From a virus, in IMG/VR virus record IMGVR_UViG_3300036828_000342, positions 1-41,570 of that record: a DNA stretch of 41,570 nucleotides, one strand, 5' to 3'. Below are positions 5,893 through 36,989 of this stretch, piece after piece; position 1 is the first letter of the stretch, and every line of letters starts with the position of its first letter. The notes below the pieces were generated by a model. That model searched no databases. It had not been told where the DNA came from and saw nothing but the letters and a program-made list of their open reading frames with translations. Position numbers and translations under genes: made by a program.

Positions 5893-6624
5893 TTACCAAA
5901 TTACGCTGGTGCCGACCATGTACTGCGGACCGAGGCCGCCGGTGGCCTGCTTGCCGATGGGTCCAATGGTAAGGCCCTTGTCCTGCATCACGACCTTGGC
6001 AAACGCACGCAGGGCGGTCCCGTTGCTCAATTGTTCCATCGCGGCAACGCCGATCACCGGCGAAAACCGCCATTCACGGTTCGAAACGAGGCCAGGGAAA
6101 TTCAGCGAGATGTCGTTGCCGTGTGCGCCGACGAACAGACCGCTTTGCAGGTTCGACGCCACCGTACCGGAGGGTAGCGGCGCGAACGGAGGAACTGTCC
6201 AGTTTGCCCAGCCCGGCAGCAACGCAAGGATGTTGGCGAATGGCGTCCACGCCGTCAGGCGGGTTTCAGTTTCCAGCGGGCCGCTGATGTTGAGGCCGGC
6301 GGCACTGCCGTTGAAGTTCGTAAAGCCCACATCCTGCTCGATCGTGTAGGCGAACGAACTGGTTTTCGATCCCCAGGCCCAACCGAACGTCGCGCCGATG
6401 TTCGCCTGCGTGGTCGTCAAGCTGTTGGCGTTCACGCCTGGAACGGTCGCGCCATTCACCGAGCTGGCCCCGCCCTCGACATAGATGCCGAAGATCGGCC
6501 CCGAGCTCTGGTAGGGGTAGCCGTTCGGAAGCCACGACACGGCAGGGGTTTTCACCGGCAAATCGGCTGCGAACGCGGATGCGGAAAAGACGAGCGCCGC
6601 GACAATTCCAAATAATCGCTTCAT
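5893..6624 (-). CDS. Omp25/porin-like outer-membrane protein with Sec leader
   Basis: 243 residues. A clear signal peptide (MKRLFGIVAALVFSASAFA) is followed by ADLPVKTP, the mature N terminus typical of many Bradyrhizobiaceae surface proteins. The rest is Gly/Asn/Thr-rich with alternating hydrophobic strands (NIGATFGWAWGSKTSSFAYT) and ends in an aromatic residue (GTSVIW), as beta-barrel proteins often do. The ribosome site GGAG lies 9 bases before ATG 6624. It sits between the holin and the papain-like gene. It may alter the host surface during infection, for example by blocking superinfection, or be a captured host gene; that is inference. Confidence 0.7.
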   Translation of the reverse strand: MKRLFGIVAALVFSASAFAADLPVKTPAVSWLPNGYPYQSSGPIFGIYVEGGASSVNGATVPGVNANSLTTTQANIGATFGWAWGSKTSSFAYTIEQDVGFTNFNGSAAGLNISGPLETETRLTAWTPFANILALLPGWANWTVPPFAPLPSGTVASNLQSGLFVGAHGNDISLNFPGLVSNREWRFSPVIGVAAMEQLSNGTALRAFAKVVMQDKGLTIGPIGKQATGGLGPQYMVGTSVIW

Positions 6625-6708
6625 GGCTTTATCTCCAATAGCTGCACAGCCAGCATTGCTGCCACAACCAGAGCGGATTTACTGTCACCAGAAAGCAACA
6701 GTAGCTAA

Positions 6709-7062
6709 CTATCCGTGACCGTTTTTGGCGGTCTGAGCGACCGCTGCCTGAGCTGATGGCGTCGGAGCGATCTTGGACTGACCGGGATCAACTGCGATTG
6801 TCGCCAAGGCCATATTTGCCTGAGAATTCACGGTGATTTTCTCGACGCCAGGCATAGCCGCAACATCTTTCACAAGACTGCCTTGCCCGGATAACGTCGT
6901 GCCGACCGAATTGATGATGATGCCGATAATGCCGAGGACAGCGACAATTTTCAGCGTCAGATCCTGACCAAACAATGTTTGCAACAGGGCCGCTCCGGTG
7001 ATCAGTCCGCCATTGATCCCGCTGATGATTTGAAACCATTGCTTGCTAGTGAGTTGGGTCAC
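6709..7062 (-). CDS. Holin
   Basis: 117 residues, starting at GTG 7062 in a GTGA overlap with the endolysin stop. Two hydrophobic segments lie at about residues 10-32 (ISGINGGLITGAALLQTLFG) and 38-58 (LKIVAVLGIIGIIINSVGTT). They are followed by a soluble tail with KDVAAMPGVEKITVNSQANM, a pattern familiar from holins of alphaproteobacterial phages. Holins form inner-membrane lesions that time lysis and release the endolysin. The coupled start right after the GH108 endolysin supports the call. The tail ends in an Ala/Gln-rich stretch. Confidence 0.8.
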   Translation of the reverse strand: MTQLTSKQWFQIISGINGGLITGAALLQTLFGQDLTLKIVAVLGIIGIIINSVGTTLSGQGSLVKDVAAMPGVEKITVNSQANMALATIAVDPGQSKIAPTPSAQAAVAQTAKNGHG

Positions 7063-7619
7063 GCTACATTCCCGCTGTTTGCAAACATCGCAAGGGATGC
7101 AGCCTTGCACCGCTCCGCGCGACCAAACCAATCGGACGCGAATTTCTTTTGACTTGGATCGTGAGTGATGATGGCGGAATAGAACGCCACTTCATCATTG
7201 TAAAATGCAGAGATAATATGCGGAACGTCGTTGATTTCATTGACCGCATTGCCGGTGATCGGCCCCCAGACACCATCAACCGAAAGACCCATCGACTGCT
7301 GCAGGAGACGGACGCCGCGGGCGGGGCCGCCGTTGATATCGATGTTGAAGAACGAAAGGTCGAGACCAACAGGGAGCTGTGGGCAATGCGGCAGCCAGTA
7401 GTTCGTCCAATAAATCTCGGTGTATTCGTCTACCGAAATCAGGTTAACGGATTGCAGCGGGAGGCCCTTGGAATGCCGAAAAATGTTGTATTCGGTCTGG
7501 ATGATGCCGTACCGCGTTGCGCCGCCATGATCGCCTGGCGTATTTGAAAATCGCGTGCCTTCCTCCTGAATGATGAACGGCATGCAGGCGATAAATCGAG
7601 GTGATGTGTCTACAGTCAT
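7059..7619 (-). CDS. Endolysin, GH108-type N-acetylmuramidase
   Basis: 186 residues, start ATG 7619. The N-terminal domain has the GH108 signature: FIIQEEGTRFSNTPGDHGGA followed by TRYGI, with E20 as the expected catalytic acid. The C-terminal part (GGPARGVRLLQQSMGLSVDG, then VWGPIT) matches the peptidoglycan-binding repeat that usually follows in this family. The enzyme cuts the glycan backbone of peptidoglycan at the end of infection. No signal peptide, so export depends on the holin encoded by the overlapping next gene. Length is normal for the family. Confidence 0.88.
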   Translation of the reverse strand: MTVDTSPRFIACMPFIIQEEGTRFSNTPGDHGGATRYGIIQTEYNIFRHSKGLPLQSVNLISVDEYTEIYWTNYWLPHCPQLPVGLDLSFFNIDINGGPARGVRLLQQSMGLSVDGVWGPITGNAVNEINDVPHIISAFYNDEVAFYSAIITHDPSQKKFASDWFGRAERCKAASLAMFANSGNVA

Positions 7620-7694
7620 TATCTACCACCAGTATTTGATACCAAGATCGAATATCTAGCGAGCCAATCTAACCGCACTGATGGCCGCTAGCCT

Positions 7695-8495
7695 TTAATA
7701 CTCCTTCACGATTATCTTGCCAGCCGCGCCACTTCCCCCCGCTTGGCCGCCAGTACCGGCACCACCAGCCGCGCCAAGGGCACCAGTCGTATAGGAATAA
7801 GTACCGCTGGGGCTATTGATGATCTTGAAAAACCAGCCGCCTGCGCAACCTCCTCCACCTGAAAGCGCTGTTGTATTTTCTCCTGCCCCGCCGCCACCGC
7901 TGCCGGAATTGGTGGCCGCAGCACCGCCCGCAGCGTTTGATGGACCACCATAGCCAGCACCACCAAATTTGGAGTTTCCACCCGGAGAACCATAAGCATT
8001 CGAGATTCCGACCGCCGTTCCACCGAGGCCGCCGGTCAGGGAAAAATCGGCACCGCTGACTGTACCGCCTGTGCATATTCCTCCATCAGAACGACCTTTC
8101 GTTCCGCCGTTGGCGGTGACTGTGCTGAATGTCGTGTTGCCTCCATCGCCTGCGGCGCTCGGCGTCGATCCAGATCCGGCGCCTCCACCGCCAGCACCAA
8201 CACCCTCGATCTCCAGCCGCGTTGCACCCGCTGTCGGCGTGTACGTTCCGTTATTGGCCTGCGAGCCGCCACCATTGCAAGTCACTGCGGAAGTGCTGTT
8301 GATCTCGCAAACGGTCGACGCGCGGAAAGTTACCGGGCCGCCTGTGGTGTTTACCGCATTGTTGAGTGCCGTCAGAACGCCGGTACCGAGCCCCGTGATC
8401 CCGGTATTCGACGAACTGAGATCAAGGCCCTGTAGTGCCCACGCAATAGCGCAGGTTGCAAACAGCGCACTGATTGAAGAGATAATCCGCTTCAT
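7695..8495 (-). CDS. Glycine-rich fibre/adhesin-like protein with signal peptide
   Basis: 266 residues, start ATG 8495 behind GAGGA. A Sec-type leader (MKRIISSISALFATCAIAWA) precedes a beta-rich region (about 30-90) with EINSTSAVTCNGGGSQ. From about residue 100 the chain is dominated by Gly-rich stretches (GVGAGGGGAGSGS, GGLGGTAVG, SGSGGGGAGE) and ends GGSGAAGKIIVKEY, a typical C terminus of Gly-rich phage tail-fibre tips or adhesins that form polyglycine-II sheets. Receptor binding is the expected role. The signal peptide is odd for a virion part assembled in the cytoplasm. Overlapping frames were rejected. Confidence 0.65.
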   Translation of the reverse strand: MKRIISSISALFATCAIAWALQGLDLSSSNTGITGLGTGVLTALNNAVNTTGGPVTFRASTVCEINSTSAVTCNGGGSQANNGTYTPTAGATRLEIEGVGAGGGGAGSGSTPSAAGDGGNTTFSTVTANGGTKGRSDGGICTGGTVSGADFSLTGGLGGTAVGISNAYGSPGGNSKFGGAGYGGPSNAAGGAAATNSGSGGGGAGENTTALSGGGGCAGGWFFKIINSPSGTYSYTTGALGAAGGAGTGGQAGGSGAAGKIIVKEY

Positions 8496-8506
8496 TGCAT
8501 CCGTCC

Positions 8507-10024
8507 TCAGTTCGCCACGCCGCCAGTGGCTGTCGAACAATTTGAACTGCCTGGGAAATAGGTGTTTGGAGCTCCTGTGTTGCTCAGGATCAGCCCGAGA
8601 GTGTTGGCGTTGCACCGAGGACCTGTAATCGTATTGGCATTCGTATTGATTGTCAGGGACACGAAGCCAGCCTGCGCTCCGGTGTCGGCGTAGGCAAACC
8701 CCAACACGGAAAACGACGGGTTAACGCCGGGCAAGAAGTTGATGTTGGCGGCGACATCGGCCTCGAAAAGTCCCTTGTTTTGTACCTGGACAAACGAGGT
8801 CCCGGCGCTGGAAATGATCCCAATATCGCCCTCGACGTGAAGCTGAGCCTCATTAAACAGTGATATATGAGCCCCTGCGGGTGAGCCGCCGAAAATATTA
8901 CCGGCGTTCAGGTAGATTTTGCATCCCCAGTCCCCGGAGATACCACTCGATGGGTTGAGAAAGGTGACATTTGAGATTTGAAGCACCGTTCCGAAGAAAC
9001 ACGCTAGCCCTGTACTGGCAGTGGTGAAAGACGATCCGTTGGTAACGGTGCCTCCGCTGGTATACGCACCACCGAACGTCGTGCTTTGCAGCGTCAGGTG
9101 GGTACTATCGGTGACCGTGACCTTCCACGTTCCGTTGCAGCCAGTCGCGCCGGCGATGCCGTAAACCGAAACGATCTGGTTTGTCGAGTACGTTCCCGTC
9201 GCGCTGACCGTGATCTCGCACAGGCCACCGTTACTTACCGCCCCGCTGATCGCAAGCGAGGCGCCAATGATCTGGAACGCCGCACCCCCTTGGCCTCCGA
9301 CCAGGGAATGAGCCGCCAAGTGAAGGCTCCCAGCATCAGCCGTTGCCGCAGCCATATTGCAGTTAACCAATGTCTGGGACGACTCGTCGCCGTTATAGTC
9401 GATCTGATCAAGCGTCATCTGGTAACAGTGTTGAGCACTCTTGAATGCCTGAGAGCCAGTGCCAAGTCCGTCAACCCCAAGAGCATCGCTGCCGTTGGTG
9501 AAATCAGTTTTGAAATTAATCGTGGTTGATCCCGGAGGGCGCCATCGTCCCGGCCTGGATAAAACTGCCCAAGCACCATTTACGATGCCAATCGCGCAAG
9601 ACTGTTGAGGCCACAGTACATTGCGAGTTGAACAACCGGGGTCGTTCGAAATTGCCTTGCCGCGCCCAGTATCTCCATTGAACAGCGTAACGACGCACGT
9701 CGCTGGAAAACCAGAAACGGATGGCACCGTAAGAGTAAAATAGCCCGTAGACCCCGTTCCTAGTTGAATCGTTTTGCCGCAATCTGTCGTCGCAATCGTG
9801 TAATTTGCGATCTGCGTATTTAGAGTGTTGGTTTCAACGCCGGGCGGCAAGGCCGTAGGAGAGATGCCGCCATTGCAACCGAATCCGCCATCTTTGAGCA
9901 CAGTCGTCGAGGAAAACTGCGGGCAGTCTCCGGGCGTGATCGGGCCGATGACGGTGACGGGCTGGGCTAATGACGATGCCAGACCAATCATCAGAAACAA
10001 CAGAGCGGCGACGACACGAATCAT
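8507..10024 (-). CDS. Large beta-rich tail-spike/fibre-like protein with signal peptide
   Basis: 505 residues, start ATG 10024 in an ATGA overlap with the upstream gene. The leader is MIRVVAALLFLMIGLASSLA. The mature part is Ser/Thr/Gly-rich. A middle module reads TYSTNQIVSVYGIAGATGCN, then GTWKVTVTDSTHLTLQST and GGAYTSGGTVT, the FCCH/Ig-like fibre module found in many phage tail proteins. The C-terminal half (CFFGTVLQISNVTFLNPSSG, ... GGSPAGAHISLFNEAQLHVE) has the short-strand rhythm of a right-handed beta-helix. A receptor-binding or depolymerase spike is plausible, but no catalytic residues can be pointed to. Confidence 0.6.
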   Translation of the reverse strand: MIRVVAALLFLMIGLASSLAQPVTVIGPITPGDCPQFSSTTVLKDGGFGCNGGISPTALPPGVETNTLNTQIANYTIATTDCGKTIQLGTGSTGYFTLTVPSVSGFPATCVVTLFNGDTGRGKAISNDPGCSTRNVLWPQQSCAIGIVNGAWAVLSRPGRWRPPGSTTINFKTDFTNGSDALGVDGLGTGSQAFKSAQHCYQMTLDQIDYNGDESSQTLVNCNMAAATADAGSLHLAAHSLVGGQGGAAFQIIGASLAISGAVSNGGLCEITVSATGTYSTNQIVSVYGIAGATGCNGTWKVTVTDSTHLTLQSTTFGGAYTSGGTVTNGSSFTTASTGLACFFGTVLQISNVTFLNPSSGISGDWGCKIYLNAGNIFGGSPAGAHISLFNEAQLHVEGDIGIISSAGTSFVQVQNKGLFEADVAANINFLPGVNPSFSVLGFAYADTGAQAGFVSLTINTNANTITGPRCNANTLGLILSNTGAPNTYFPGSSNCSTATGGVAN

Positions 10025-10323
10025 TGGTAGAATTCCAGGATTACAATCACATTGGTTCCGGCCGACGACGCTATCGCGTTCATGCCCGCGGTCCATTGCG
10101 TCGTGTTCGGCGGTCCAAACATCTGACCCTGCTGTGGCTGGATCGCGATTCCGTTGCCAACCACGGCGGCGGTGCCGAGCGGCATCACCCAAAGTGTCAC
10201 GGATCCCGATGGATTGAACACATAGAGTCCGGCGCGCTGCAAATTCGGAGTTGCTACCTGCACGCTTGCATTGCTGACATTGGCCGTGATCAGTGCGCTT
10301 GGACTAGGATAAGTGCTCGACAT
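10021..10323 (-). CDS. Small beta-sandwich virion protein, 100 aa
   Basis: ATG 10323 overlaps the upstream stop (TAATG) and the gene ends in ATGA with the next. The product begins MSSTYPSPSALITANVSNAS and contains RAGLYVFNPSGSVTLWVMPL, later WTAGMNAIASSAGTNVIVIL. It shares its pattern (an R-x-L/G-L..N..S..LWV core, a G-x-GI-x-I strand, a final VILEF/VLDY strand) with the 138-residue protein at 12102-12518, which carries a leader; they look like paralogues. Probably a small fibre or decoration subunit. No signal peptide in this one. Confidence 0.5.
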   Translation of the reverse strand: MSSTYPSPSALITANVSNASVQVATPNLQRAGLYVFNPSGSVTLWVMPLGTAAVVGNGIAIQPQQGQMFGPPNTTQWTAGMNAIASSAGTNVIVILEFYQ

Positions 10324-10727
10324 TATTTCACACCGAAGTCGACCACAATACCCGTAGCAACGGTGGACGTATCCGTGTCCGAAAGCGCCCCTGTGAAGCA
10401 AATTCCGATGCCCTTGAGAAACTTGAACGGAACCGCCAGAGGAAACGAGAACGTCGCTTGTGTTGCGATCAAGAATGTCTGCACGGGAACGTCGGTCCCG
10501 CAGGTTGGCGCCGTCGCCTTGTCGTACAGTTTGAGCCACGCCGATGAATTGAGGGGGTTGCCTATTGCGACGGAGGCCAACTCGCCAGCGCCCCCCTGCA
10601 CCAGATTTGTCGGCGTTGCGCTCGTCGTGCCGTTGCTCTGAAAATGCAAGGGCTGCGCAATCTGCGCCAGCGCCGCTCCGGCAAGGAACGTAGACGCTAC
10701 CACCGACACAAAGGCGATATTGCGCAT
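10323..10727 (-). CDS. Fibre-associated protein with signal peptide, 134 aa
   Basis: Start ATG 10727. The N-terminal 21 residues (MRNIAFVSVVASTFLAGAALA) are a textbook Sec leader with an ALA cleavage site. The mature domain has IGNPLNSSAWLKLYDKATAP followed by TCGTDVPVQTF and a GIGICFTG strand. The NxxxSSAWLKLYD..xxPxxGT pattern is a common small virion/fibre-associated domain in phages. It is usually cytoplasmic, so the leader is notable. Coupled (TAATG) to the next gene. Confidence 0.6.
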   Translation of the reverse strand: MRNIAFVSVVASTFLAGAALAQIAQPLHFQSNGTTSATPTNLVQGGAGELASVAIGNPLNSSAWLKLYDKATAPTCGTDVPVQTFLIATQATFSFPLAVPFKFLKGIGICFTGALSDTDTSTVATGIVVDFGVK

Positions 10728-10729
10728 GG

Positions 10730-10948
10730 TCACTCCTTGATGAATCGGCTGGGAAGGCCTATGCGTCCGCGTCGGCCACCTTCGTCCGGGTATACACATC
10801 CGCTATTTGTCTCTCGGATCGGCATTCCTCGCGGCCCCTTGACCGCCAGATCACCTGTGGTCGAATTAGCCACCGCGCCGCGGGTGAACTTCGGTTGCAG
10901 ACGTTCGGTTTTTGATGCCGGAATGATATCTCTGTACATCGTAGCCAT
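10730..10948 (-). CDS. Hypothetical protein, 72 aa
   Basis: Start ATG 10948 behind AAAGGGAG. A basic, Gly/Arg/Pro-rich soluble protein (RGAVANSTTGDLAVKGPRGM, then PIRETNSGCVYPDEGG) with no membrane segment. It lies 2 bases upstream of the leader-bearing 134-residue gene's start. No family recognised; the low complexity suggests a virion accessory. Confidence 0.55.
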   Translation of the reverse strand: MATMYRDIIPASKTERLQPKFTRGAVANSTTGDLAVKGPRGMPIRETNSGCVYPDEGGRRGRIGLPSRFIKE

Positions 10949-10950
10949 GA

Positions 10951-11085
10951 TCAACTCCCTTTGACTGGAATGAAGAACCTTTTCACAACGCCGTCCCGAA
11001 ACCGATGCTCGAACGGCATGACGCGAGCAGCCAGAACAAGCAGGCTGACGGATTTTTCAAAGTCACGTTCGCGCCATCCTCTCAA
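10951..11085 (-). CDS. Possible small basic protein, 44 aa
   Basis: A frame from TTG 11085 to the stop at 10951 encodes LRGWRERDFEKSVSLLVLAA, then RVMPFEHRFRDGVVKRFFIP, ending VKGS. The sequence is coherent and fills the gap between the O-antigen-ligase-like gene and the 72-residue gene. The start is weak: TTG without a good ribosome site, overlapping the upstream gene. An alternative GTGA-coupled frame here is shorter and less convincing. Confidence 0.35.
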   Translation of the reverse strand: MRGWRERDFEKSVSLLVLAARVMPFEHRFRDGVVKRFFIPVKGS

Positions 11086-12097
11086 GGTTAATTCGTCGGC
11101 GGTACATAGCGAAATCGAGTAGAGTAAACCGGCTCCGCACAGCATGGCCTGCAGCCAGCATTCCGATAAAGGCCGTGGCTGGAATATGGATCGGAAAGGC
11201 AAAACAACTCTCCACAGCAAGAGTGATCAGAACGAGGCGGGCGGTATCCAGCGGTCCCGTCATGGTGAAGCACCATAGGCAGAATAGCAACAATCCGGGC
11301 AGGCCGAGTTCAAAAGCGACGTGAAGCCATTCGTTGTGGGCAAACTCCGGCCGTTCGATCATCTGCCCCCGCACGAATTGCGGATAGTCGGTCCAGAACG
11401 ATCCGATGCCATGTCCGAACGGTGTCAGTCCGTACAGCGTCGATTCCCAGATCTGGCATCGCCCGGTGCAGATCGAATTACGATCAAGCGTGTACTCGAC
11501 GATAGCCACGCCAGCCACGGCGATGATGCCGAACGCTAGCAAGCGTTTTCCCCTGAAATACACAGCCAGGGCGATCGCGCCGGCCAGTATGGCGCCCCTC
11601 GCTCCGGAAATGACCAAAGTCGGTCCCATCAGCGCCGCCAGCCACCACATTCTTTCGACCATTGCGGCGACCAAAATCAGCGCGGCGGTCTCGCCCAGAA
11701 AGATCTGATTGACGAATAGTCCGGAGGTTCCCACCCCCCGGACCAGATCTACCCCAAAAACATGCACCGCAGCAACGACTCCGGATATGGCGACCGCTAT
11801 TCCGGCACCCACATAGACTGGTCGCATATCCTCGATCTGATTGCCGAGGCAGAAAATCTGCGCCAGCAATCCGATGATAAACAGGCTGCCGATCCCATCT
11901 ACCGGGACCGGCGTCCACGCCAGCGACAGTGCCGCCCATGCGATCAGCAATAATCCGACGACGTGGGCCGCCGTCCAGTCCTGGCGCCTCACGAGCCACG
12001 GCACGATCAAGAACAACAGCGCCCAACGCGGCGTAGTGGCAGCCCCGGCAATGCCCGGCCAGTATAAAACCGACGCTAGGAATGCCAGGATCGCCAC
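11063..12097 (-). CDS. O-antigen ligase/polymerase-like membrane protein (Wzy_C/WaaL type)
   Basis: 344 residues from GTG 12097 (GGAGG about 8 bases upstream). About nine to ten hydrophobic segments run through the chain, starting VAILAFLASVLYWPGIAGAA. The long periplasmic loop has the family pattern: GLTPFGHGIGSFWTDYPQFV, then RPEFAHNEWLHVAFELGLPG, the H-N-x-x-L/W-x-x-x-x-E-x-G core of Wzy_C proteins. Such enzymes join or polymerise O-antigen or exopolysaccharide at the inner membrane. In temperate phages, related genes change the host's LPS. It lies inside the virion/fibre cassette between leader-bearing genes. Activity and substrate are inferred. Confidence 0.7.
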   Translation of the reverse strand: MAILAFLASVLYWPGIAGAATTPRWALLFLIVPWLVRRQDWTAAHVVGLLLIAWAALSLAWTPVPVDGIGSLFIIGLLAQIFCLGNQIEDMRPVYVGAGIAVAISGVVAAVHVFGVDLVRGVGTSGLFVNQIFLGETAALILVAAMVERMWWLAALMGPTLVISGARGAILAGAIALAVYFRGKRLLAFGIIAVAGVAIVEYTLDRNSICTGRCQIWESTLYGLTPFGHGIGSFWTDYPQFVRGQMIERPEFAHNEWLHVAFELGLPGLLLFCLWCFTMTGPLDTARLVLITLAVESCFAFPIHIPATAFIGMLAAGHAVRSRFTLLDFAMYRRRINLERMART

Positions 12098-12101
12098 AGT
12101 G

Positions 12102-12518
12102 TCAGCCTCCGTAATCCAGCACGGAAAGCGTTGCAGGCGTGGCCGACGCCACCGCATTCCATGCGGCGCCAATGCCTCCGGTCACCTGACCGAAGGTTAC
12201 AGCCGGGATGTTGATGCAGGTCGTCGTTCCCGAGGATACGGGCGGGATGGAAATCGAACCGATGCCGTTCGCGGCCGGCACGGTCGGCGCCGGCGCTACC
12301 CATATCGTCGGGCTCGCGCTGACATTGCAAAGCGTCAGCAGCTTGCGACTCGGATTGGCGAGCACGCACGATGTCGATGCGTTGGCTCCGGTGATCAGGC
12401 AACCCGTGGCGAGTGGGCCAAGCTGGGTTGTCTGGGCGATCGCTGGCACAAACCACACCGCATAACCGAGCAGCGCTGCGACGGCGACTGAGGTGGCAAA
12501 AAGTCCAAGACGGGTCAT
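12102..12518 (-). CDS. Small beta-sandwich protein with signal peptide, 138 aa
   Basis: Start ATG 12518. A long Sec leader (MTRLGLFATSVAVAALLGYA then VWFVPAIAQ) precedes a Thr/Ala/Ser-rich beta domain: ASTSCVLANPSRKLLTLCNV, SASPTIWVAPAPTVPAANGI, and a last ATLSVLDYGG strand. Four cysteines (GC, SC, LC, TC) in the mature part could form disulphides in the periplasm, which agrees with export. The core resembles the leaderless protein at 10021-10323. Role unknown; a surface or fibre component is possible. Confidence 0.55.
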   Translation of the reverse strand: MTRLGLFATSVAVAALLGYAVWFVPAIAQTTQLGPLATGCLITGANASTSCVLANPSRKLLTLCNVSASPTIWVAPAPTVPAANGIGSISIPPVSSGTTTCINIPAVTFGQVTGGIGAAWNAVASATPATLSVLDYGG

Positions 12519-12522
12519 GTGG

Positions 12523-12780
12523 TTATCCTCTTTTCCAGTAGAGCAGGGTTTGCGGGAGCACGAACACGAGCGAGAAGGCGACGGCGGCGAACAGTCGGTC
12601 ACGGGTCGGATCGTAAATCGTCCAGATCCAGATCGCGGCGCCGGTCAGGACGGCGATCAGCAGCAGCATGCGGGTCGCGCAGATGGCGGCAACCGCTTTC
12701 GCCATCTCGACATAGGACGGGCTGATATCTTCGGCCTCGGGGCCTGGCTGGCTATCCTGGAAAAGCGGGGTGATGCTCAT
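12523..12780 (-). CDS. Small two-span membrane protein
   Basis: 85 residues, ATG 12780, in an ATGA overlap with the preceding gene. Two hydrophobic helices: ICATRMLLLIAVLTGAAIWI and LFAAVAFSLVFVLPQTLLYW, with a short charged loop (YDPTRDR) between and a basic end (WKRG). The first 28 residues are soluble and acidic. Topology is holin-like, but a convincing holin already follows the endolysin. It may be a second holin/antiholin or a virion membrane protein. Confidence 0.55.
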   Translation of the reverse strand: MSITPLFQDSQPGPEAEDISPSYVEMAKAVAAICATRMLLLIAVLTGAAIWIWTIYDPTRDRLFAAVAFSLVFVLPQTLLYWKRG

Positions 12781-16951: not shown

Positions 16952-17302
16952 CTAGCTAATCCCCAATGCCTGCCGGATTTGCTGGTGCGTGCTCGAGTGA
17001 TAACCCAAAAAGCTGTAAAAATCATCCTGACTGTCGATATTGAACTGGCTGAAGTCGAGCGTCGTGACACCGATCGCCTGTGCGAGCAACTGATGGGCCT
17101 CCTGATGGGCCTCGAGTTGGGCCTTCCTGGTCGGCCCCGCAGTCAAAAACGACAGAAAATCGTAATCAGGAATCACGACGGCCGGAGTTAGTCCGGACAG
17201 CACCTGGACGAATTGCAAATGTTCGCGGTGATGGCCGATATCCCACCCGCCATAGCCGGGGAGATCGCTGAACGTCACCTGGTCCGGAGAGAAATTAGGC
17301 AT
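16952..17302 (-). CDS. Hypothetical virion-region protein, 116 aa
   Basis: ATG 17302 overlaps the stop of the tail-nozzle gene (TGATG). A soluble helical protein rich in His and Gln (YGGWDIGHHREHLQFVQVLS, QLEAHQEAHQLLAQAIGV, HSSTHQQIRQALGIS). No family known to me. Genes in this spot, between tail nozzle and ejection proteins, are often small head-tail accessories. Confidence 0.55.
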   Translation of the reverse strand: MPNFSPDQVTFSDLPGYGGWDIGHHREHLQFVQVLSGLTPAVVIPDYDFLSFLTAGPTRKAQLEAHQEAHQLLAQAIGVTTLDFSQFNIDSQDDFYSFLGYHSSTHQQIRQALGIS

Positions 17303-19500
17303 CACGCCCTACTCCGGTTGCCGACATTGGTCTCCTGAAATTCGATCGTCGCATTGGTGGCGGTGAAACTTGCCAGCGTGCCGGTGATCGTCAATCCGAG
17401 ATAGCGCCCGGCGCCGTCGATGTGATTGCCGGCGTTGTCGGTCTGATAACTGAGTGCACGGAATCCCGACGCCAATGTCTCGGTATAGCTGTTTGACCCC
17501 TCGTCGGTATCCACCGACATCGACACCGTTCCGGTGGTTCCGAGCGTCACCGCAAACCCGGCGCGGATTACCTTCTTGCGCTGCACCGCATTGCCGTGGT
17601 GAGTAAGGGACGATTGCAGCTTGAACGAGACAGCCACGGTGGGATCGCCAAACAATGCCGTTATATCGGTGCCGGATGATCCGTAAAGCTGAGTCTTTCC
17701 GGTCGCCGCACTCGGTGCGGTCGCGAATGCCACCAGATTATTACCCTGCGACCCGACAAACCATTTCTTGCCGCTGAAGATCAGCATGATCGATCGCGTC
17801 GTGCTGAGAGGATCCTTGTACCGAACCAAAAATGCGATGTTGTGGATGTTGTTCATATCGACAATTGCGGCCTGGGGCCCCTGCGAAAAATCGATCAGCT
17901 TGAAGATGCCGTCCATATCATCGGAAATTTTCTGCACGCTGGAGCCGAACACGCCATAGATGCCATTGGAGTTGGCAAACATGAACACGCGATTGAACGA
18001 CGCGCAGCTTTGCGGATAGATTGTGCCCTGATCGGACGACAGCGTCAGGATCGTAAACAGCGTGATATTGCCGGCAGAGTTGAGCGATATGTTTCCGATC
18101 TGCTTCACCGACTGGTCGCCCATGATATAGAGATAATTGTTCAGCGAGCGCAGCGCCGTGATCGAATGCACGAGATCCGCGTCCGAAATCACCAGAGATC
18201 CGCTGGCGTTGGCAGCGTTGAAATCGTCGTAGCCTTGCGTTCCCGTATATTGCAGCAACTGACCGCCAGCGAGCCACACCCGGCCCTGAAAAACGGCCAG
18301 CGTCGTTCCCTTGGGGATGAACGGCCAGACATGGCCAGTGGCCGCAGCTCCGGATCCGGTGCCGATGATGACAGAGGGAGTCGATGTGTAGCCCGAGCCG
18401 ACAGTATCCAGAATCAGGGCATTGACCGATCCGCCCGAGATCGTGGCATGAGCGGTCGCGCCCGACCCGCCGCCGCCGACAATGGACACGGTCGGCGCCG
18501 CAACATAGCCACTGCCGCCGGCATCGCGCACGATCGAGGCAACGCCTGACGTTCCCAGAAACACGTTGAAAGTTGGCGGCTGACCTCCGCCAAAGGTTAT
18601 GTTGCACGACGGCGGCGAAGTGTAGCCGCTGCCGCCCGCCGTCAACGCCACCCCGTCCACGGTGTAGACCGTCGGCCCAGGGCCATTAAAAATCACGTTG
18701 GCAAAGCCGGCCGCGCCGGTGCCGCCGCCGCCGGCAAAGACAAAGCTGTAATTGCCGGGCGTGTTGGCTGGATTTGTCTGGAAAAGACCCCTGTTGTTGA
18801 TGGTAACGGATGACACCGGGAATCCCGGCATCGTGACGTGCCCGGCGGCGCCGGACCCGACGCCGGTTCCGAACGAAACCGTCAACGTGTCGCCTACCTG
18901 ATAGCCTGTACCGGGGCTGGTCAGCACAATCCCGACGACAACGCCGTTGACGATCGTCGCCGTTGCCGTCGCTCCGGTGCCGGAACCACCCGAGATTGTC
19001 ACCGGCGGCGGGCTGGAATAGCCGCTGCCGCCATTGCTGATGTTGAATACCGGAGACACGCCGCCCTGATGGACAAAGACCGTGCCGTCAAAGGTGCAGT
19101 AACCCGCAATCGAGTCGTTGATCAGGACGCGGGAGGCCTGCCATGTCGTCAGGTCAGGCGACGTCGAAAACGTTCCAGCGGTCGCGAATTGATTGACAAA
19201 CCCGGTTGCGATATTGACCGATGACGCCGATCCGTCCGATGCAAAATCAAAGAGATAATCGACACCACCAATATCGGCATAGAACATGCTGACGGTGGAT
19301 GCCGGAAGCGTTGTCAGTGCAGGTGATATCGGGCCGGGAACGACGGTCAGATTATTCGGCGCGATCGGCTGCAGGTTTTCCAGCCACGCCAGTTCGTTTT
19401 CCTTCAAAGCCTGCCGCACGCTTTGCGTATTCAGCTTCTCGAACTGCTCGAAAACGATGAATTTCGAAGTCGCGCGCTGTTCTGCTCCGGGCGGCGGCAT
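17302..19500 (-). CDS. Tail nozzle protein (T7 gp12/P22 gp10-like) with GxGY repeats
   Basis: 732 residues. The N terminus (FIVFEQFEKLNTQSVRQALK) and the C-terminal half (GTTLAVFQGRVWLAGGQLLQ, YLYIMGDQSVKQIGN, SCASFNRVFMFANSNGIYGV) have the blade-like repeats of podovirus tail nozzles, which form the distal end of the short tail. Between about 150 and 391 lies an inserted block of five GxGY units (for example NGGSGYSSPPPVTISGG and AGGSGYTSPPS), each followed by a GATATA-like strand. The same module occurs in the next two virion genes upstream. The nozzle assignment rests on size, repeats and order (adaptor gene 3 bases upstream). Confidence 0.7.
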   Translation of the reverse strand: MPPPGAEQRATSKFIVFEQFEKLNTQSVRQALKENELAWLENLQPIAPNNLTVVPGPISPALTTLPASTVSMFYADIGGVDYLFDFASDGSASSVNIATGFVNQFATAGTFSTSPDLTTWQASRVLINDSIAGYCTFDGTVFVHQGGVSPVFNISNGGSGYSSPPPVTISGGSGTGATATATIVNGVVVGIVLTSPGTGYQVGDTLTVSFGTGVGSGAAGHVTMPGFPVSSVTINNRGLFQTNPANTPGNYSFVFAGGGGTGAAGFANVIFNGPGPTVYTVDGVALTAGGSGYTSPPSCNITFGGGQPPTFNVFLGTSGVASIVRDAGGSGYVAAPTVSIVGGGGSGATAHATISGGSVNALILDTVGSGYTSTPSVIIGTGSGAAATGHVWPFIPKGTTLAVFQGRVWLAGGQLLQYTGTQGYDDFNAANASGSLVISDADLVHSITALRSLNNYLYIMGDQSVKQIGNISLNSAGNITLFTILTLSSDQGTIYPQSCASFNRVFMFANSNGIYGVFGSSVQKISDDMDGIFKLIDFSQGPQAAIVDMNNIHNIAFLVRYKDPLSTTRSIMLIFSGKKWFVGSQGNNLVAFATAPSAATGKTQLYGSSGTDITALFGDPTVAVSFKLQSSLTHHGNAVQRKKVIRAGFAVTLGTTGTVSMSVDTDEGSNSYTETLASGFRALSYQTDNAGNHIDGAGRYLGLTITGTLASFTATNATIEFQETNVGNRSRA

Positions 19501-20891: not shown

Positions 20892-21094
20892 CACAATGTC
20901 CTGTAGATTTCCTGTAACAGTTTGATCGCCGCTGCCATCTTTTCGGCAACGGTCAGTTCATTGGCCGGCGCTGACGGCTCATAGCCCTCGATCGGGCCGT
21001 CCGGGCCGTGTCCGGGCGCATAGGATACCGACGGCGCAGCAGGTGCAAATTCTTCGGTGGCCGCGGGTTCTTCGTTCGAATCGGTGTCACTCAT
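20891..21094 (-). CDS. Small acidic virion-region protein, 67 aa
   Basis: ATG 21094 overlaps the stop of the 302-residue gene (TGATG). The first 50 residues are acidic, Pro/Ala-rich and probably disordered (EEPAATEEFAPAAPSVSYAP). The end is one amphipathic helix (LTVAEKMAAAIKLLQEIYRT). No family recognised. Confidence 0.55.
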   Translation of the reverse strand: MSDTDSNEEPAATEEFAPAAPSVSYAPGHGPDGPIEGYEPSAPANELTVAEKMAAAIKLLQEIYRTL

Positions 21095-22002
21095 CACTGC
21101 ACCCTTGGCTGAAGCAGAACAAGGCTGACGGCCGGCGTGGTGTTTGCGACGGCGCCGGTCGCGGCAACGCCGCCCGCGCCGCCGGTAAAGGTGACGGTTC
21201 GCGACGAACTGGTATAGCCGCCGCCGGGATTGTCGATCACAAGGCCGGTCAGGGTGCCGGATCCCGTCAGCGCGATCGAAGTAAGCTGCACGCCGGTTGC
21301 CGACGTGTTCTGGTTGCCGGGAACGGCATTGCTCGGGAAAACCAGACCTGGGGCCGGGATGGCGCCGGCCGCAACGCCCTGTGCCGGGCCGCCCTGATAG
21401 AGCGCCGGTTGCGGGATCACCCAGAAATTAGGCGAGGCCAGATAGCCGCCGCCAACATTGGCCATGCTGACGGATGCAACGGTGCCGGTGGCGGAAAGCG
21501 CGCAGGTGGCGGTGGCCTGGATGCCGCCGGGCGGCGGCGGGTCGATCACGATCAGCGGCGGCTCGAGGAAACCGGAACCGGCCTGCGTGATGGTCGGCGC
21601 CGCCACCGAGCCGCCGACGATGGTGGAGACGGTACCCCTGACGCCGCCGGTGGTGTCGCTGACCGGAACGGTGGCCGACACGCCATTGATGGTCGAGCCG
21701 ATACCGTTGGTCATGGTCGAACCGGCATTGCTGATCGTGGTCGAGGTGAAAATCCCGGCCGTGTTCAGAAAGCGGAAATTGTAACCGTCGGCCGACAGAT
21801 AGCCGCCACCGGACGCGGGCGTCAGCGTCTGCCAGGTCTGGGCCTGGCCGTCGAAATATTGCAGGATGGTGTTGGCATCCAGATTGTAGATGTACTCGCC
21901 CGGAGGCGGATAGAACACGCCGCCGGAGGCCAGTTCAACCCGCGAGCCGCCCTCCTGCACCTGGGCGAGGGGAAGGGGAAATGCGCCGCCAATGCGAGCC
22001 AT
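21094..22002 (-). CDS. Virion decoration/structural protein with GxGY repeats, 302 aa
   Basis: ATG 22002 follows GAGG, 10 bases after the capsid gene. The first 90 residues have a distinct domain (VFYPPPGEYIYNLDANTILQ, YFDGQAQTWQTLTPASGGGY). The remainder holds at least three GxGY-type units (ITQAGSGFLEPPLIVI, VGGGYLASPNFWVI, NPGGGYTSSSRTVTFTGG) separated by GATATA-like strands. The position right after the major capsid gene suggests a head decoration or head-tail protein. The repeats match those in the adaptor and nozzle genes and may present an Ig-like surface. Confidence 0.6.
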   Translation of the reverse strand: MARIGGAFPLPLAQVQEGGSRVELASGGVFYPPPGEYIYNLDANTILQYFDGQAQTWQTLTPASGGGYLSADGYNFRFLNTAGIFTSTTISNAGSTMTNGIGSTINGVSATVPVSDTTGGVRGTVSTIVGGSVAAPTITQAGSGFLEPPLIVIDPPPPGGIQATATCALSATGTVASVSMANVGGGYLASPNFWVIPQPALYQGGPAQGVAAGAIPAPGLVFPSNAVPGNQNTSATGVQLTSIALTGSGTLTGLVIDNPGGGYTSSSRTVTFTGGAGGVAATGAVANTTPAVSLVLLQPRVQ

Positions 22003-22011
22003 GTTGAGACC

Positions 22012-23022
22012 TCAGATGTTCAGGAACGCCAGGCCGTCGAACTTGCCGTGCGCCTTGCATTTCACGTCAACCAGTTCGAGCAGCGACAGGATGGCGCCGA
22101 TGTAACCGAGCTGGTTGTTCGGCAGCGTCGATTCGAAGCCGGTGAACGAGAACGCCGCGCGCTCGTGCAGGTACAGCGACAGGTAGTTGGTGTTGATCAG
22201 ATAGAGCACGCCTTCCGGGCAGTACGGATCGGCATAAAAGGGGACGCCGGCCACGTCAAGCGCGCGAAACAGCGCCTCGGCCTTCTTGTCGGCGCCGAAC
22301 GCATCGCCGGGAGTGATGACGTAGCGTTCCTGCGACGTGAAGTCCTGCGCCAGCAGCGTCCAGGTTCCGAATCCCATGATGCCGATGGTCGGCATTTCGC
22401 CGGTGGTCTTGGAGACCTGGGCGATATACTGCAGCATCAAATTGCGGGTCGGCGTGGTGGCGCCGCCGTTGTGAACGTAGGTCGATTTCCAGAATGCGTT
22501 GGTGGTGCGCGACACGCCGCCGTAACTGGTCGAGAACGTGCCGTCGTCGATCGCCGCCGGCAATCCGATCAATTGCTGGTTGTTGGCGACGTTGTTGAAC
22601 AGGGCTGTCGCAAAGGTGTCGATGGTGACGTTGGTGGAGTCGTTCATGCGCGCTTCGATCAGCGGCACCACGGAATAGTCGAGCTGCACCAGGCCCTCCA
22701 TCCCCAGGAACGGGATGGTCGAGACAAAGGCCTTGAGGTTGAATTCGGCGTTCTGGATGCCGGGCTGCACGCCTGGCTGCTGGAACGAACCTGAGTAATC
22801 CACCCACTGGCCCGACACCATCGGCGTGCCCTGCAGCGGGGCTGTGATCGGCGACAGGCCGCCGGTCGCGACCTGGGCCGACGCCAGCATGGCCGCCATA
22901 AGTGGAGCACTTTTCCAGAGTTGCACGTACACGCGAGGCATGAACGCCCTTCGTACCACTGACGAAAGCTCGGCTGCAATGGCTCCGCTGGCGGGGATTA
23001 TGCCCGATCCGAGTTGCGGCAT
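22012..23022 (-). CDS. Major capsid protein
   Basis: 336 residues, ATG 23022 behind AAGGA. The sequence has the features of HK97-fold capsid proteins: an N-terminal helical arm (AAELSSVVRRAFMPRVYVQL), an E-loop-like beta segment with GLSPITAPLQGTPMVSGQWV, a spine-helix region (ALFNNVANNQQLIGLPAAID), and a late domain with VAGVPFYADPYCPEGVLYLI and NTNYLSLYLHERAAFSFTGF. The position (downstream of portal and scaffold-like genes, upstream of adaptor and nozzle) is the standard one. The exact subfamily cannot be set without a search. Confidence 0.8.
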   Translation of the reverse strand: MPQLGSGIIPASGAIAAELSSVVRRAFMPRVYVQLWKSAPLMAAMLASAQVATGGLSPITAPLQGTPMVSGQWVDYSGSFQQPGVQPGIQNAEFNLKAFVSTIPFLGMEGLVQLDYSVVPLIEARMNDSTNVTIDTFATALFNNVANNQQLIGLPAAIDDGTFSTSYGGVSRTTNAFWKSTYVHNGGATTPTRNLMLQYIAQVSKTTGEMPTIGIMGFGTWTLLAQDFTSQERYVITPGDAFGADKKAEALFRALDVAGVPFYADPYCPEGVLYLINTNYLSLYLHERAAFSFTGFESTLPNNQLGYIGAILSLLELVDVKCKAHGKFDGLAFLNI

Positions 23023-33197: not shown

Positions 33198-34250
33198 TTA
33201 GATTGTGGACGCCAGTGACTTCAATTCTCTCTGGTATCGCGTAAGCGACTCATTGACCTCAAGTCGCTGCCCCTCAATCGAATGAGATTCACCGACGCTA
33301 AGTTGCGCTAACGGAATGCGCTTAGAGCCGCTGATACGGCCAGCGGAGTGAAAATCATCCAGCAAGTGGATTGAATCAATAGGGTCGTCGCCGGAAAAAA
33401 CATCGGCGTGAGCGTTCACGATATCAATCACCTGCGCCAGATAAGCTTGGGTGGATCGATCCGGGGTGAAGGCGGTTTGCCGGTTCCAGCCGCAATGCGT
33501 CATCACGACTGCATGAACTTTGGGAAGTTTGGTGATGCCGGCCTGTGCGTTTAGCCTTAGAAAATCCATTGTGGGGTCTTTGAGCATAGAGAGGGTAAGT
33601 TTCAATGCCTCCATCGAGTGTTGATCGACCCGAACAGGGATCACTAAGGCATCGGCCGCGACCCAGCCAAGATGCGTTGCACCACCAAAAAAGGGGCTGG
33701 TGTCGATCAGGATTTTTGAAGCCCGCAAATGTTTACGCAGCGATTCACCAAGTTGCTCGACGGATTGCAAAATATTCCGCGTGGTTTCCCGACTACGCGC
33801 GCCCAAGTTCGCCGCAGCGCTCAACTGCGTATAGAGCAGGCTCGGAAATAAAAACAATTCACTCGACCCGGCAACGACGTGCGCTCCAGCGCCGCCCTTG
33901 AACGACACGCAAGACGGCGGAACGCTGGTGACCAAATCATCGATCTCAATTGTAGGGGTGCCAGCCATCACATGCGGCAGCAGCGCATCATAGATGGTGC
34001 TCGAACTCTGATTGATGTCCTCGCCCAACAATGACTGGGTAAAATTCCGCTGCGGACAAAGGTCAAACAACAAAGACCGATTTGTCCGCGAGATCTCCCA
34101 AGCCAGGTTGAACGCCAGCGTACTTTTGCCGATTCCGCCCCGAAAATTGGTAACGGTGTAGGTTCCAAACCGAGCCTTTGGCCGGTCTACCGTTCCGCCT
34201 TCAGCAACAATCTTGAATTGTCCCAATAGCTTATCCAAATTACTAGACAT
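33198..34250 (-). CDS. ParA/MinD-superfamily ATPase with altered Walker A
   Basis: 350 residues; start ATG 34250 (MSSNLDKLLGQ) chosen for AAGGAACGAGG upstream. The Walker A reads FRGGIGKST (36-44): the first, signature lysine of the KGGxGKS/T motif is arginine here, while the catalytic lysine (K42) is kept. LLFDLCPQ (61-67) is the DxxPQ motif, and KILIDTSPFFGGATHLGWVA the Walker B region. ParA proteins move or place DNA by ATP-driven dimerisation on the nucleoid. No ParB or parS is seen, and the gene lies inside a transposon, so it probably serves the element (target choice, transpososome control or maintenance). This is inference. Confidence 0.82.
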   Translation of the reverse strand: MSSNLDKLLGQFKIVAEGGTVDRPKARFGTYTVTNFRGGIGKSTLAFNLAWEISRTNRSLLFDLCPQRNFTQSLLGEDINQSSSTIYDALLPHVMAGTPTIEIDDLVTSVPPSCVSFKGGAGAHVVAGSSELFLFPSLLYTQLSAAANLGARSRETTRNILQSVEQLGESLRKHLRASKILIDTSPFFGGATHLGWVAADALVIPVRVDQHSMEALKLTLSMLKDPTMDFLRLNAQAGITKLPKVHAVVMTHCGWNRQTAFTPDRSTQAYLAQVIDIVNAHADVFSGDDPIDSIHLLDDFHSAGRISGSKRIPLAQLSVGESHSIEGQRLEVNESLTRYQRELKSLASTI

Positions 34251-34386
34251 TGACCTCGTTCCTTCGATTTGAGCGGGTTGACCTGATCGACCAGCATAAC
34301 TTAGACTACGCAGGTGAAGCGGGTCAAGCGTCTTGACCTGCATAAAAGGATTGACGCGGGTCATGCTCTCAAGCATAAAGGTCAGT
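34251..34386. promoter_or_regulatory. Divergent parA-transposase control region with GGTCA sites
   Basis: 136 bases between divergent parA and transposase starts hold six GGTCA/TGACC motifs, far above chance for this length. One pair is a palindrome, GGTCAAG CGT CTTGACC. The same motif is part of the terminal inverted repeats. A shared regulator (the transposase or the ParA protein) may bind here and control both genes. Confidence 0.55.
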
Positions 34387-35400
34387 ATGAACAGGCTGAC
34401 CAGACAAGCGCGCGCGCAAATCCTCCACCTCCTTTGCGAGGGGCAGTCGATCCGGGCCGTCACCCGATTGACCGGATGCAGCAAGAATACGGTCGCGAAG
34501 CTGCTGGTGTCGGCTGGCCATGCCTGTGCCGCCTATCAGGACAAGACGCTCCGCAAGCTGCCCTGCCAGCGCGTCCAGATGGATGAAATCTGGTCGTTCG
34601 TTTACGCCAAGGCTGCCAATGTAGGGGCCGCCAAGACTGCTCCGGCGACCGCCGGTGATGTCTGGACCTGGACTGCGATCTGTGCCGACACCAAGCTAAT
34701 CGTTAGTTGGTTGCTCGGCGCTCGCGATACGGATGCCGCCCTTTCGTTCGTTGGCGATCTGCGGAACAGGCTAACCAATCGCGTCCAGCTAACCAGCGAC
34801 GGCCATAGGCCCTACCTGACGGCCGTTGATGCGGTATTCGGCGATGAAGTCGATTACGCCATGCTGGTGAAGATCTACGGTGCCGATCCGCAGGCCGAAA
34901 CCCGCTACAGCCCGGCCAAGTGCATCGGTGCGGAACGCCAGCCGAAGATCGGTTCGCCCGACAAGGACCATATCAGCACGTCATATGTCGAGCGGTCGAA
35001 CCTGACGATGCGGATGCATATGCGTCGGTTCACGCGGCTGACGAATGCGTTTTCAAAGAAGGTCGAAAATCACGCCGCCGCAATCGCGCTGCATGTAATG
35101 TACTACAATTTCGTCCGTATCCATCAAACGCTCAAGGTGACGCCGGCAATGGCCGCTGGCGTGACTGAGAAGCTTTGGGAGATGGACGATCTTGTCGGGC
35201 TGATCGATCAATGGGAGTTGGCTAACTACAAGCCGGAATATCAGTTCGTGGTCCGACAGTACCAGATCGGGAAGGGCCATTCGGTTAGCGTTCTGTGGCG
35301 CGGCGGAGAAATCGATACGATTTATGGTTTCGACAAGGAGGCCGATGCGATTGAATGGATCAAGGAGAGGTCGGCGGCGTGGCTGATGGAGAACCGATGA
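34387..35400 (+). CDS. IS1-type DDE transposase (Rhizobiales kind)
   Basis: 337 residues, ATG 34387 behind AAAGG. The N terminus is a helix-turn-helix (AQILHLLCEGQSIRAVTRLT, GCSKNTVAKLL). Catalytic residues: D in VQMDEIWSFVYAKAANVGA, D in LTSDGHRPYLTAVDAVFG, and E in YVERSNLTMRMHMRRFTRLT followed by NAFSKK. This is the single-ORF IS1-type transposase common in Bradyrhizobium and relatives. It looks complete and probably active. Its last 41 bases overlap the end of the membrane-protein gene on the other strand. Confidence 0.9.
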   Translation: MNRLTRQARAQILHLLCEGQSIRAVTRLTGCSKNTVAKLLVSAGHACAAYQDKTLRKLPCQRVQMDEIWSFVYAKAANVGAAKTAPATAGDVWTWTAICADTKLIVSWLLGARDTDAALSFVGDLRNRLTNRVQLTSDGHRPYLTAVDAVFGDEVDYAMLVKIYGADPQAETRYSPAKCIGAERQPKIGSPDKDHISTSYVERSNLTMRMHMRRFTRLTNAFSKKVENHAAAIALHVMYYNFVRIHQTLKVTPAMAAGVTEKLWEMDDLVGLIDQWELANYKPEYQFVVRQYQIGKGHSVSVLWRGGEIDTIYGFDKEADAIEWIKERSAAWLMENR

Positions 35401-36374: not shown

Positions 36375-36522
36375 CATCGCCGTAGACTTGGCAGGCCAGA
36401 TCGGCGCTGCCGAGGTAGTGCGGCCTGGCGCGGACCAAGTCGTAGATCCGCCGCTGCAGCGGCGTGAGCTGCACGGGCGGGCCGTCGATCTCGCCGGATC
36501 CGCCGCAACACGGGCACCTCAT
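36361..36522 (-). pseudogene. 5' part of the split winged-helix gene
   Basis: ATG 36522, in an ATGA overlap with the GcrA-like gene. It begins MRCPCCGGSGEIDGP, a CxCC zinc-like start, then LTPLQRRIYDLVRARPHYLG and SADLACQVYGDEPDGG, the first helices of a winged-helix domain. At the transposon end the frame picks up four foreign codons (SGSV) and stops at 36346. The missing half is at 32504-32655. Together they would form a 99-residue DNA-binding regulator. Its loss may alter phage regulation. Confidence 0.8.
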
Positions 36523-36989
36523 CGCGGCGTACCGGCCGAAGCCATGGCGTGGTCGAAGCAATAGGGCCCGACGCATTGCCGGACGCCGCAGAACAGGACC
36601 GGGGTCTGGGCGGGCCAGCCGCCGATCGGCCAGCGGCAATCGTTGGCCTCCAGCTCGACCAGCGCGATCAGGCGCGGCGGTGCGGCCGGCGGGCGCGGTG
36701 GTGTCGCCACGGCGACGCATTTCGGCCTTGGAATCCTGTTGGCGTTGGTCATGTAGGCGCCCTTTGCGCGGGCCTGTCGGGTCGAGGGCAGGCTGTCCGG
36801 GCGGCCGGCCCCGACGAGGCCGATTCGCTTGCCCCGCCCGATCGTTGCGTTGCGGCTGTAGGCGGTGCCGAACTCGGAATTGAGTGCTGCGGCGGCTTCG
36901 CTATACGATTTCCCGGCGATGATCAACCCGGTCAGCCGCGCATCCTGTTCCCCATTCCATTTGGTATCTCGTTTTGTGTAGAAAACCAT
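36519..36989 (-). CDS. gcrA: GcrA-family cell-cycle regulator homologue
   Basis: 156 residues, ATG 36989. The GcrA pattern is clear: WNGEQDARLTGLIIAGKSYS, EAAAALNSEFGTAYSRNATI, GRGKRIGLVGAGRP, then a variable middle and the C-terminal ELEANDCRWPIGGW, FCGVRQCVGPYCFDH. GcrA binds sigma-70 RNA polymerase and CcrM-methylated promoters in alphaproteobacteria and drives cell-cycle genes. A phage copy may redirect host transcription or time replication to the cell cycle; that is inference. It lies in the leftward early operon before the split winged-helix gene. Confidence 0.85.
   Translation of the reverse strand: MVFYTKRDTKWNGEQDARLTGLIIAGKSYSEAAAALNSEFGTAYSRNATIGRGKRIGLVGAGRPDSLPSTRQARAKGAYMTNANRIPRPKCVAVATPPRPPAAPPRLIALVELEANDCRWPIGGWPAQTPVLFCGVRQCVGPYCFDHAMASAGTPR

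Follow-up and report, generated by a model that had tools for sequence, protein, structure and literature searches.

Tailed phages are taught as assembling in the cytoplasm, and the fibres and tailspikes known from them are leaderless and assembled there. Why, then, would a phage of this kind place secretion signals on fibre-type proteins? The question is raised by a 41.6-kb uncultivated virus record, IMGVR_UViG_3300036828_000342 (hereafter the window), whose podovirus-type late region lies on the minus strand and ends in a fibre/lysis stretch. A preliminary description had placed Sec leaders on five open reading frames (ORFs) there, and we find all five at those coordinates, with ATG starts and strong leader scores. 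They are as follows, a slash marking the predicted cleavage site:

12102..12518, minus strand: small exported beta-domain protein; leader residues 1–28 (PAIA/QTTQ), mature part of 110 amino acids (aa) with two cysteine pairs
10323..10727, minus strand: small exported protein; leader AALA/QIAQ, two mature cysteines; found in about five relatives and assigned to no annotated family
8507..10024, minus strand: modular fibre; leader SSLA/QPVT, conserved QPVTVIGPITPGDC module, variable tip, 14 mature cysteines
7695..8495, minus strand: glycine-rich fibre-type protein; leader CAIA/WALQ, one cysteine in the leader and four in the mature part
5893..6624, minus strand: predicted 8-stranded outer-membrane beta-barrel of host type; leader SAFA/ADLP, aromatic C-terminus, no mature cysteine

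Each leader shows the features of Sec export and signal peptidase I cleavage: a positive n-region, a hydrophobic core and an A-x-A site near residue 18–30. A Shine-Dalgarno-like sequence precedes four of the ORFs, and 8507-10024 instead overlaps the preceding stop as ATGA. On our own leader score the five reach 14.6–17.1 (12102-12518 scoring 14.6), within the 12.7–19.3 given by twelve well-known E. coli leaders; the remaining window genes score 5.6 or less, except for a polytopic Wzy_C protein at 10.6. The stretch that holds all five leader genes comprises about 12 of the roughly 50 genes of the window, a clustering with p ~4e-4.

Relatives were collected through the capsid gene, which gave 80 loci, and about 30 contigs supplied the stretch that follows the tail genes. 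The capsid query was required because single-protein scans of viral contigs returned no match for 12102-12518 and one relative for 8507-10024. Leader-bearing genes are abundant in the fibre/lysis region of these relatives too, which makes them a trait of this family of uncultivated soil phages, and leaders hardly occur on the terminase, portal, capsid and tail-tube genes, bar relocated copies of the same leader-bearing families. The family total is 86 distinct leader genes with A-x-A sites; glutamine is the commonest +1 residue, occurring in 50. We rejected three other accounts of these N-termini: a ribosome site and leaderless start just past the cleavage point (2/86), a twin-arginine-like motif for Tat export (2/86) and a lipobox-like motif (3/86). 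Fibre-type genes in the distant relatives OP596615 and MW202753/MW202825 lack a strong leader.

Are the leaders used? Cysteine parity allowed us to address this in complete leader-bearing proteins that contain cysteine and whose mature part has no membrane segment, the leader call itself being independent of cysteine. The mature cysteine number is even in 71 of 74 such proteins, as against 305 of 714 leaderless proteins from the same phages, and for other residues within the leader-bearing set the even share is 34–50%. Eighteen of the proteins have a single leader cysteine; counted over the mature part the number is even in 17, over the whole protein in only one. After single-linkage clustering about 15 of 17 are even, and an earlier pass at 40% identity, with 1–6 cysteines, gave 28 of 30. 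The four cysteines previously noted in 12102-12518 are confirmed, and all lie in its mature part. Parity and the leader-cysteine contrast therefore make export, cleavage and disulphide formation the simplest reading. We hold it very probable from these sequence patterns that the leaders are functional Sec signals and the family's proteins are exported; predicted residence of the mature proteins in an oxidising compartment is strongly supported.

The rest of the argument draws on five further genes:

10021..10323, minus strand: leaderless beta-domain protein, homologous to the mature part of 12102-12518 (profile match 1.9e-15) and translationally coupled to the fibre gene
11063..12097, minus strand: polytopic Wzy_C enzyme (O-antigen ligase/polymerase/O-oligosaccharyltransferase superfamily; PF04932, 1.7e-8), directly after 12102-12518
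7059..7619, minus strand: endolysin (GH108; PF05838 3.1e-13, phrog_315 1.2e-29), without a leader
6709..7062, minus strand: probable holin (weak PF16083 match), after the endolysin
22012-23022, minus strand: capsid, in the late region, followed by gp11/gp12-like tail genes, internal proteins and the fibre/lysis stretch

The beta-domain family offers a comparison of proteins with and without leaders. It has three branches, one leader-bearing, one leaderless beside the fibre gene and one leaderless in the head module, with profile matches of 1.9e-15, 1.6e-9 and 3.7e-17. Each of the 22 leader-bearing members carries two or four cysteines in its mature part; 19–20 of them have the main pair, which none of 33 leaderless homologues has, and two leader-bearing members use a different pair. 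Later pairs (C40/C51 of the window protein, that of L003 and the alternative pair of L041 and L097) look, from sequence, as if gained two at a time. The preliminary description had named leaderless homologues as a finding that would count against the leaders. Such homologues do exist, but beta-domain proteins without a leader are also without the cysteine pair, and they look more like a cytoplasmic version of the domain than like evidence against the leader. An AlphaFold2 model of 12102-12518 is a small beta-sandwich (predicted local distance difference test, pLDDT, 85) whose nearest folds are small uncharacterised phage proteins; a PDB fold search with this model gave no match at E <= 0.001. 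Annotated phages gave no match to 12102-12518 or 10021-10323, and a search for the former in 398 genomes of one phylum, made without a positive control, found none. The leaderless 10021-10323 is about 70% identical in many relatives, and leader-bearing members also stand among head genes in relatives. For the other small exported protein, 10323-10727, homology to a leaderless head-module protein of about 219 aa appeared only in an iterated search (profile-profile probability 0.3%) and was dropped as drift.

The fibre gene 8507-10024 sits at the fibre position and pairs a conserved N-terminal part, consisting of the leader and a VTVIGPITPGDC module, with a variable tip; the layout is leader, QPVTVIGPITPGDC..F.STTVLKD.G..C and then a tip unrelated among most phages. 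The protein itself has no fibre domain above cut-off, and a leader-bearing relative with the same module carries a C-terminal Peptidase_S74 domain (7.6e-12), an intramolecular chaperone, and matches tail-fibre PHROG 1980 (6e-20). All 13 distinct genes with the fibre module have the leader, whatever their genome position. Directly before the fibre gene, and coupled to it, stands the leaderless 10021-10323. The glycine-rich 7695-8495 profile-matches residues 112–419 of a leader-bearing fibre, L006:19061-20329 (9e-143 after iteration), and some of its leader-bearing relatives match Gly_rich_2. These proteins resemble tailed-phage fibres and tailspikes, such as the P22 spike and S74-chaperone fibres, in their position before the lysis genes, their conserved N-terminal module with variable tip and the S74 and tail-fibre PHROG matches of family members; unlike them, they have a cleavable Sec leader and paired cysteines.

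Four of the five mature parts had been described as resembling fibre, spike or small virion proteins. This description suits the fibre, the glycine-rich protein and the beta-domain protein and fails for 5893-6624, a predicted outer-membrane barrel. Its model has long antiparallel strands at a pLDDT of only 65, its C-terminus reads ...TSVIW, ending in tryptophan, and its best PDB matches are OmpA (2.9e-4), OmpX and Ail. It has no match of its own to a Pfam outer-membrane-protein family, and a relative, L097:11217-11864, matches OMP_b-brl (4.8e-8). Annotated phages gave no match; the nearest relatives found are rhizobial Omp25/31-like proteins, and cellular homologues occur in 31 of the 398 genomes searched. 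GcrA was carried by 12 of 12 tested genomes with a barrel homologue, versus one of eight other genomes, and the window itself encodes a homologue of this cell-cycle regulator at 36519-36989 (PF07750, 1.4e-20). Because the phage carries both a GcrA homologue and a rhizobial-type barrel whose cellular homologues carry GcrA, these sequences point to an alphaproteobacterial host. Host assignment from capsid matches in genome bins was deemed unreliable, the matches being in metagenome bins of unrelated phyla. The barrel shares a leader, an 8-stranded fold, an aromatic C-terminus and a late-region phage location with Lom-type outer-membrane proteins (OmpX/Ail fold); it differs in that the relatives found nearest to it are Omp25/31-like proteins, and its likeness to Lom is one of fold. 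It is probably host-derived, altering the surface of the infected or lysogenic cell.

Two destinations had been offered for the leader-bearing proteins: the surface of the lysogen or infected cell, or virions completed outside the cytoplasm. Export is strongly supported, and both classes seem to be present, the surface class in the barrel, with its rhizobial cellular homologues, and the virion-type class in the fibre, the glycine-rich protein and the beta-domain protein, late-operon genes with fibre or head-module relatives; for the exported fibres, arrival in the virion would be a further step. We propose that signal peptidase I cleaves the leaders and that the late proteins 8507-10024, 7695-8495, 12102-12518 and 10323-10727 pass to the periplasm, where they would fold with disulphide bonds. 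The fibres would remain there until the endolysin opens the cell and would then join virions released through the same lesion, with the leaderless 10021-10323, made just before the fibre, perhaps serving as the attachment point. The barrel would be a separate class, placed like Lom-type proteins of lambda. As a whole, we give this explanation about an even chance of being right. Computation supports the leaders, their conservation, the disulphide signature, the fibre-type domains and the barrel; virion attachment after periplasmic maturation, and its timing, we infer, and for attachment the arguments are evenly balanced. A fuller version, in which the receptor-binding fibres, and possibly proteins of head-decoration type, are exported, gain disulphide bonds and perhaps glycans in the periplasm and are fitted only at or after lysis, is possible but a little less probable than that.

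Several observations weigh against this proposal. The leader score is home-made rather than that of SignalP. The tip of 8507-10024 has a sub-threshold E1_FCCH match and otherwise no family match. In L124 the beta-domain is fused in frame to the fibre, and the fusion lacks a leader; in L089 and L052 the corresponding position is taken by fibre-type genes without leaders. Export is therefore not required for the fibre in this lineage, which, judging by predicted leaders, holds both exported and non-exported versions. Leader-bearing beta-domain proteins form a single clade (95/89), so their leader and cysteine pair may stem from one event. Finally, attachment after lysis would suffer from dilution.

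The main rival to virion attachment is surface binding on the infected cell. On this account the fibres, once exported, would stay off the virion altogether. By binding or cleaving the receptor or the surface polysaccharide of infected cells or debris they would block superinfection and progeny loss, or else they would work as free enzymes; receptor binding by the virion would fall to another protein, such as the gp12-like 17302-19500. Export itself, which is well supported, also serves this account, as do the barrel and the Wzy_C gene, two cell-surface genes sharing the late cluster, and the esterase domain on one leader-bearing relative. However, the fibre position of the window offers no other fibre candidate, the S74 chaperone and fibre PHROG matches indicate virion fibres, and fibre genes are coupled, and once fused, to the leaderless beta-domain. 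On balance we think it unlikely, if a serious contender. Concerning the proteins named here, L108:11506-14235, of 909 aa, is encoded in the fibre region, bears a leader and has an esterase domain (PF00756, 1.7e-13). Tail protein 17302-19500 varies in length among relatives, and repeated GSGYTSPPSVTISGG-type segments occur both in it and in the head-module protein 21094-22002.

A further reading would add to our proposal rather than replace it: the Wzy_C enzyme would be an O-oligosaccharyltransferase glycosylating exported phage proteins, with 12102-12518 as its partner or substrate. The enzyme is polytopic, matches PF04932 and has the HN..L motif of its superfamily, conserved in the alignment as HN..L....E.G; a comparison with 50,697 phage records gave no match. 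In most relatives that have it, Wzy_C lies 0–2 genes from a leader-bearing beta-domain gene, at two different genome sites. This recurrence suggests that the two form a functional pair at the periplasmic face, where Wzy_C proteins work, with surface polysaccharide or the exported proteins as the target. Superfamily enzymes adjoining their acceptor protein are known for pilins. Yet many genomes have the beta-domain gene without Wzy_C, L015, L017, L002 and L055 carry Wzy_C elsewhere, away from it, and the sequence search gave no solved relative of the enzyme. The same domain also polymerises or ligates O-antigen, its usual task in phages. Phage-encoded O-antigen polymerases, for example that of phage D3, are likewise polytopic Wzy_C enzymes, whereas the one here stands in a late cluster beside a small exported protein. 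We regard glycosylation as rather doubtful.

Less probable still is a role in lysogenic conversion, with the leader-bearing proteins shown on the surface of the lysogen and unconnected to virion assembly. ParA-type and XRE-type genes hint at a plasmid-like temperate phase, and the host-type barrel suits this account well. It misfits the fibres, though, the genes lying within the late operon and overlapping or coupled to structural-type genes, and leader-bearing beta-domain genes being found in head modules too. Beside the ParA-type gene (33198-34250), an IS1-type transposase gene (34363-35400) marks an insertion within the phage genome. We consider it very improbable that the N-terminus is no export signal and is instead a hydrophobic tip that stays on a cytoplasmic virion protein: cytoplasmic assembly is normal for tailed-phage fibres and some leader-bearing relatives carry long hydrophobic stretches, but the A-x-A/Q sites are conserved, cysteines become even only once the leader is removed (17/18 versus 1/18) and the leaderless homologues have no cysteine pair.

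Several other genes were noted. Tiny leader-bearing proteins of 53–65 aa (L096:8722-8913, L112:5987-6184, L090:9157-9327 and L099:9474-9635) share a C-terminal motif like C.G.LDLS.GC(A)... In L143, which is distantly related and was binned with a Chloroflexi genome, the ORF of the major capsid protein (9860-10999) begins with a Sec-like leader; a perfect AGGAGG site lies upstream, and no better internal start was seen. The same contig encodes a signal-peptide-bearing protein with TPAVTVIGP, adjoining a polytopic Wzy/ligase-like protein. At 12523-12780 the window encodes a conserved 85-aa protein with two membrane segments, found directly after the internal virion genes in nearly all relatives and possibly a second holin.

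Structural phage proteins with Sec leaders are familiar from filamentous phages, whose coat proteins pIII and pVIII are inserted in the inner membrane and assembled during extrusion. The proteins described here share the leaders, but they are soluble, the parity-set proteins having no mature membrane segment, and their phage is of lytic podovirus type, equipped with an endolysin and a probable holin. Leaders have been reported on endolysins (PMC8951688, PMC10820202). We found no Sec leaders on tailed-phage fibres in the literature searched, whose scope left out most subscription journals, nor any description there of two-compartment virion assembly for tailed phages. If our proposal is correct, receptor-binding proteins would have disulphide formation and the enzymes of the periplasm at their disposal and would meet the host's own receptors early, and the completion of virions would take place beyond the inner membrane. 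Testing cysteine parity costs little and could be tried on any uncultivated virus to spot exported virus proteins without culture.

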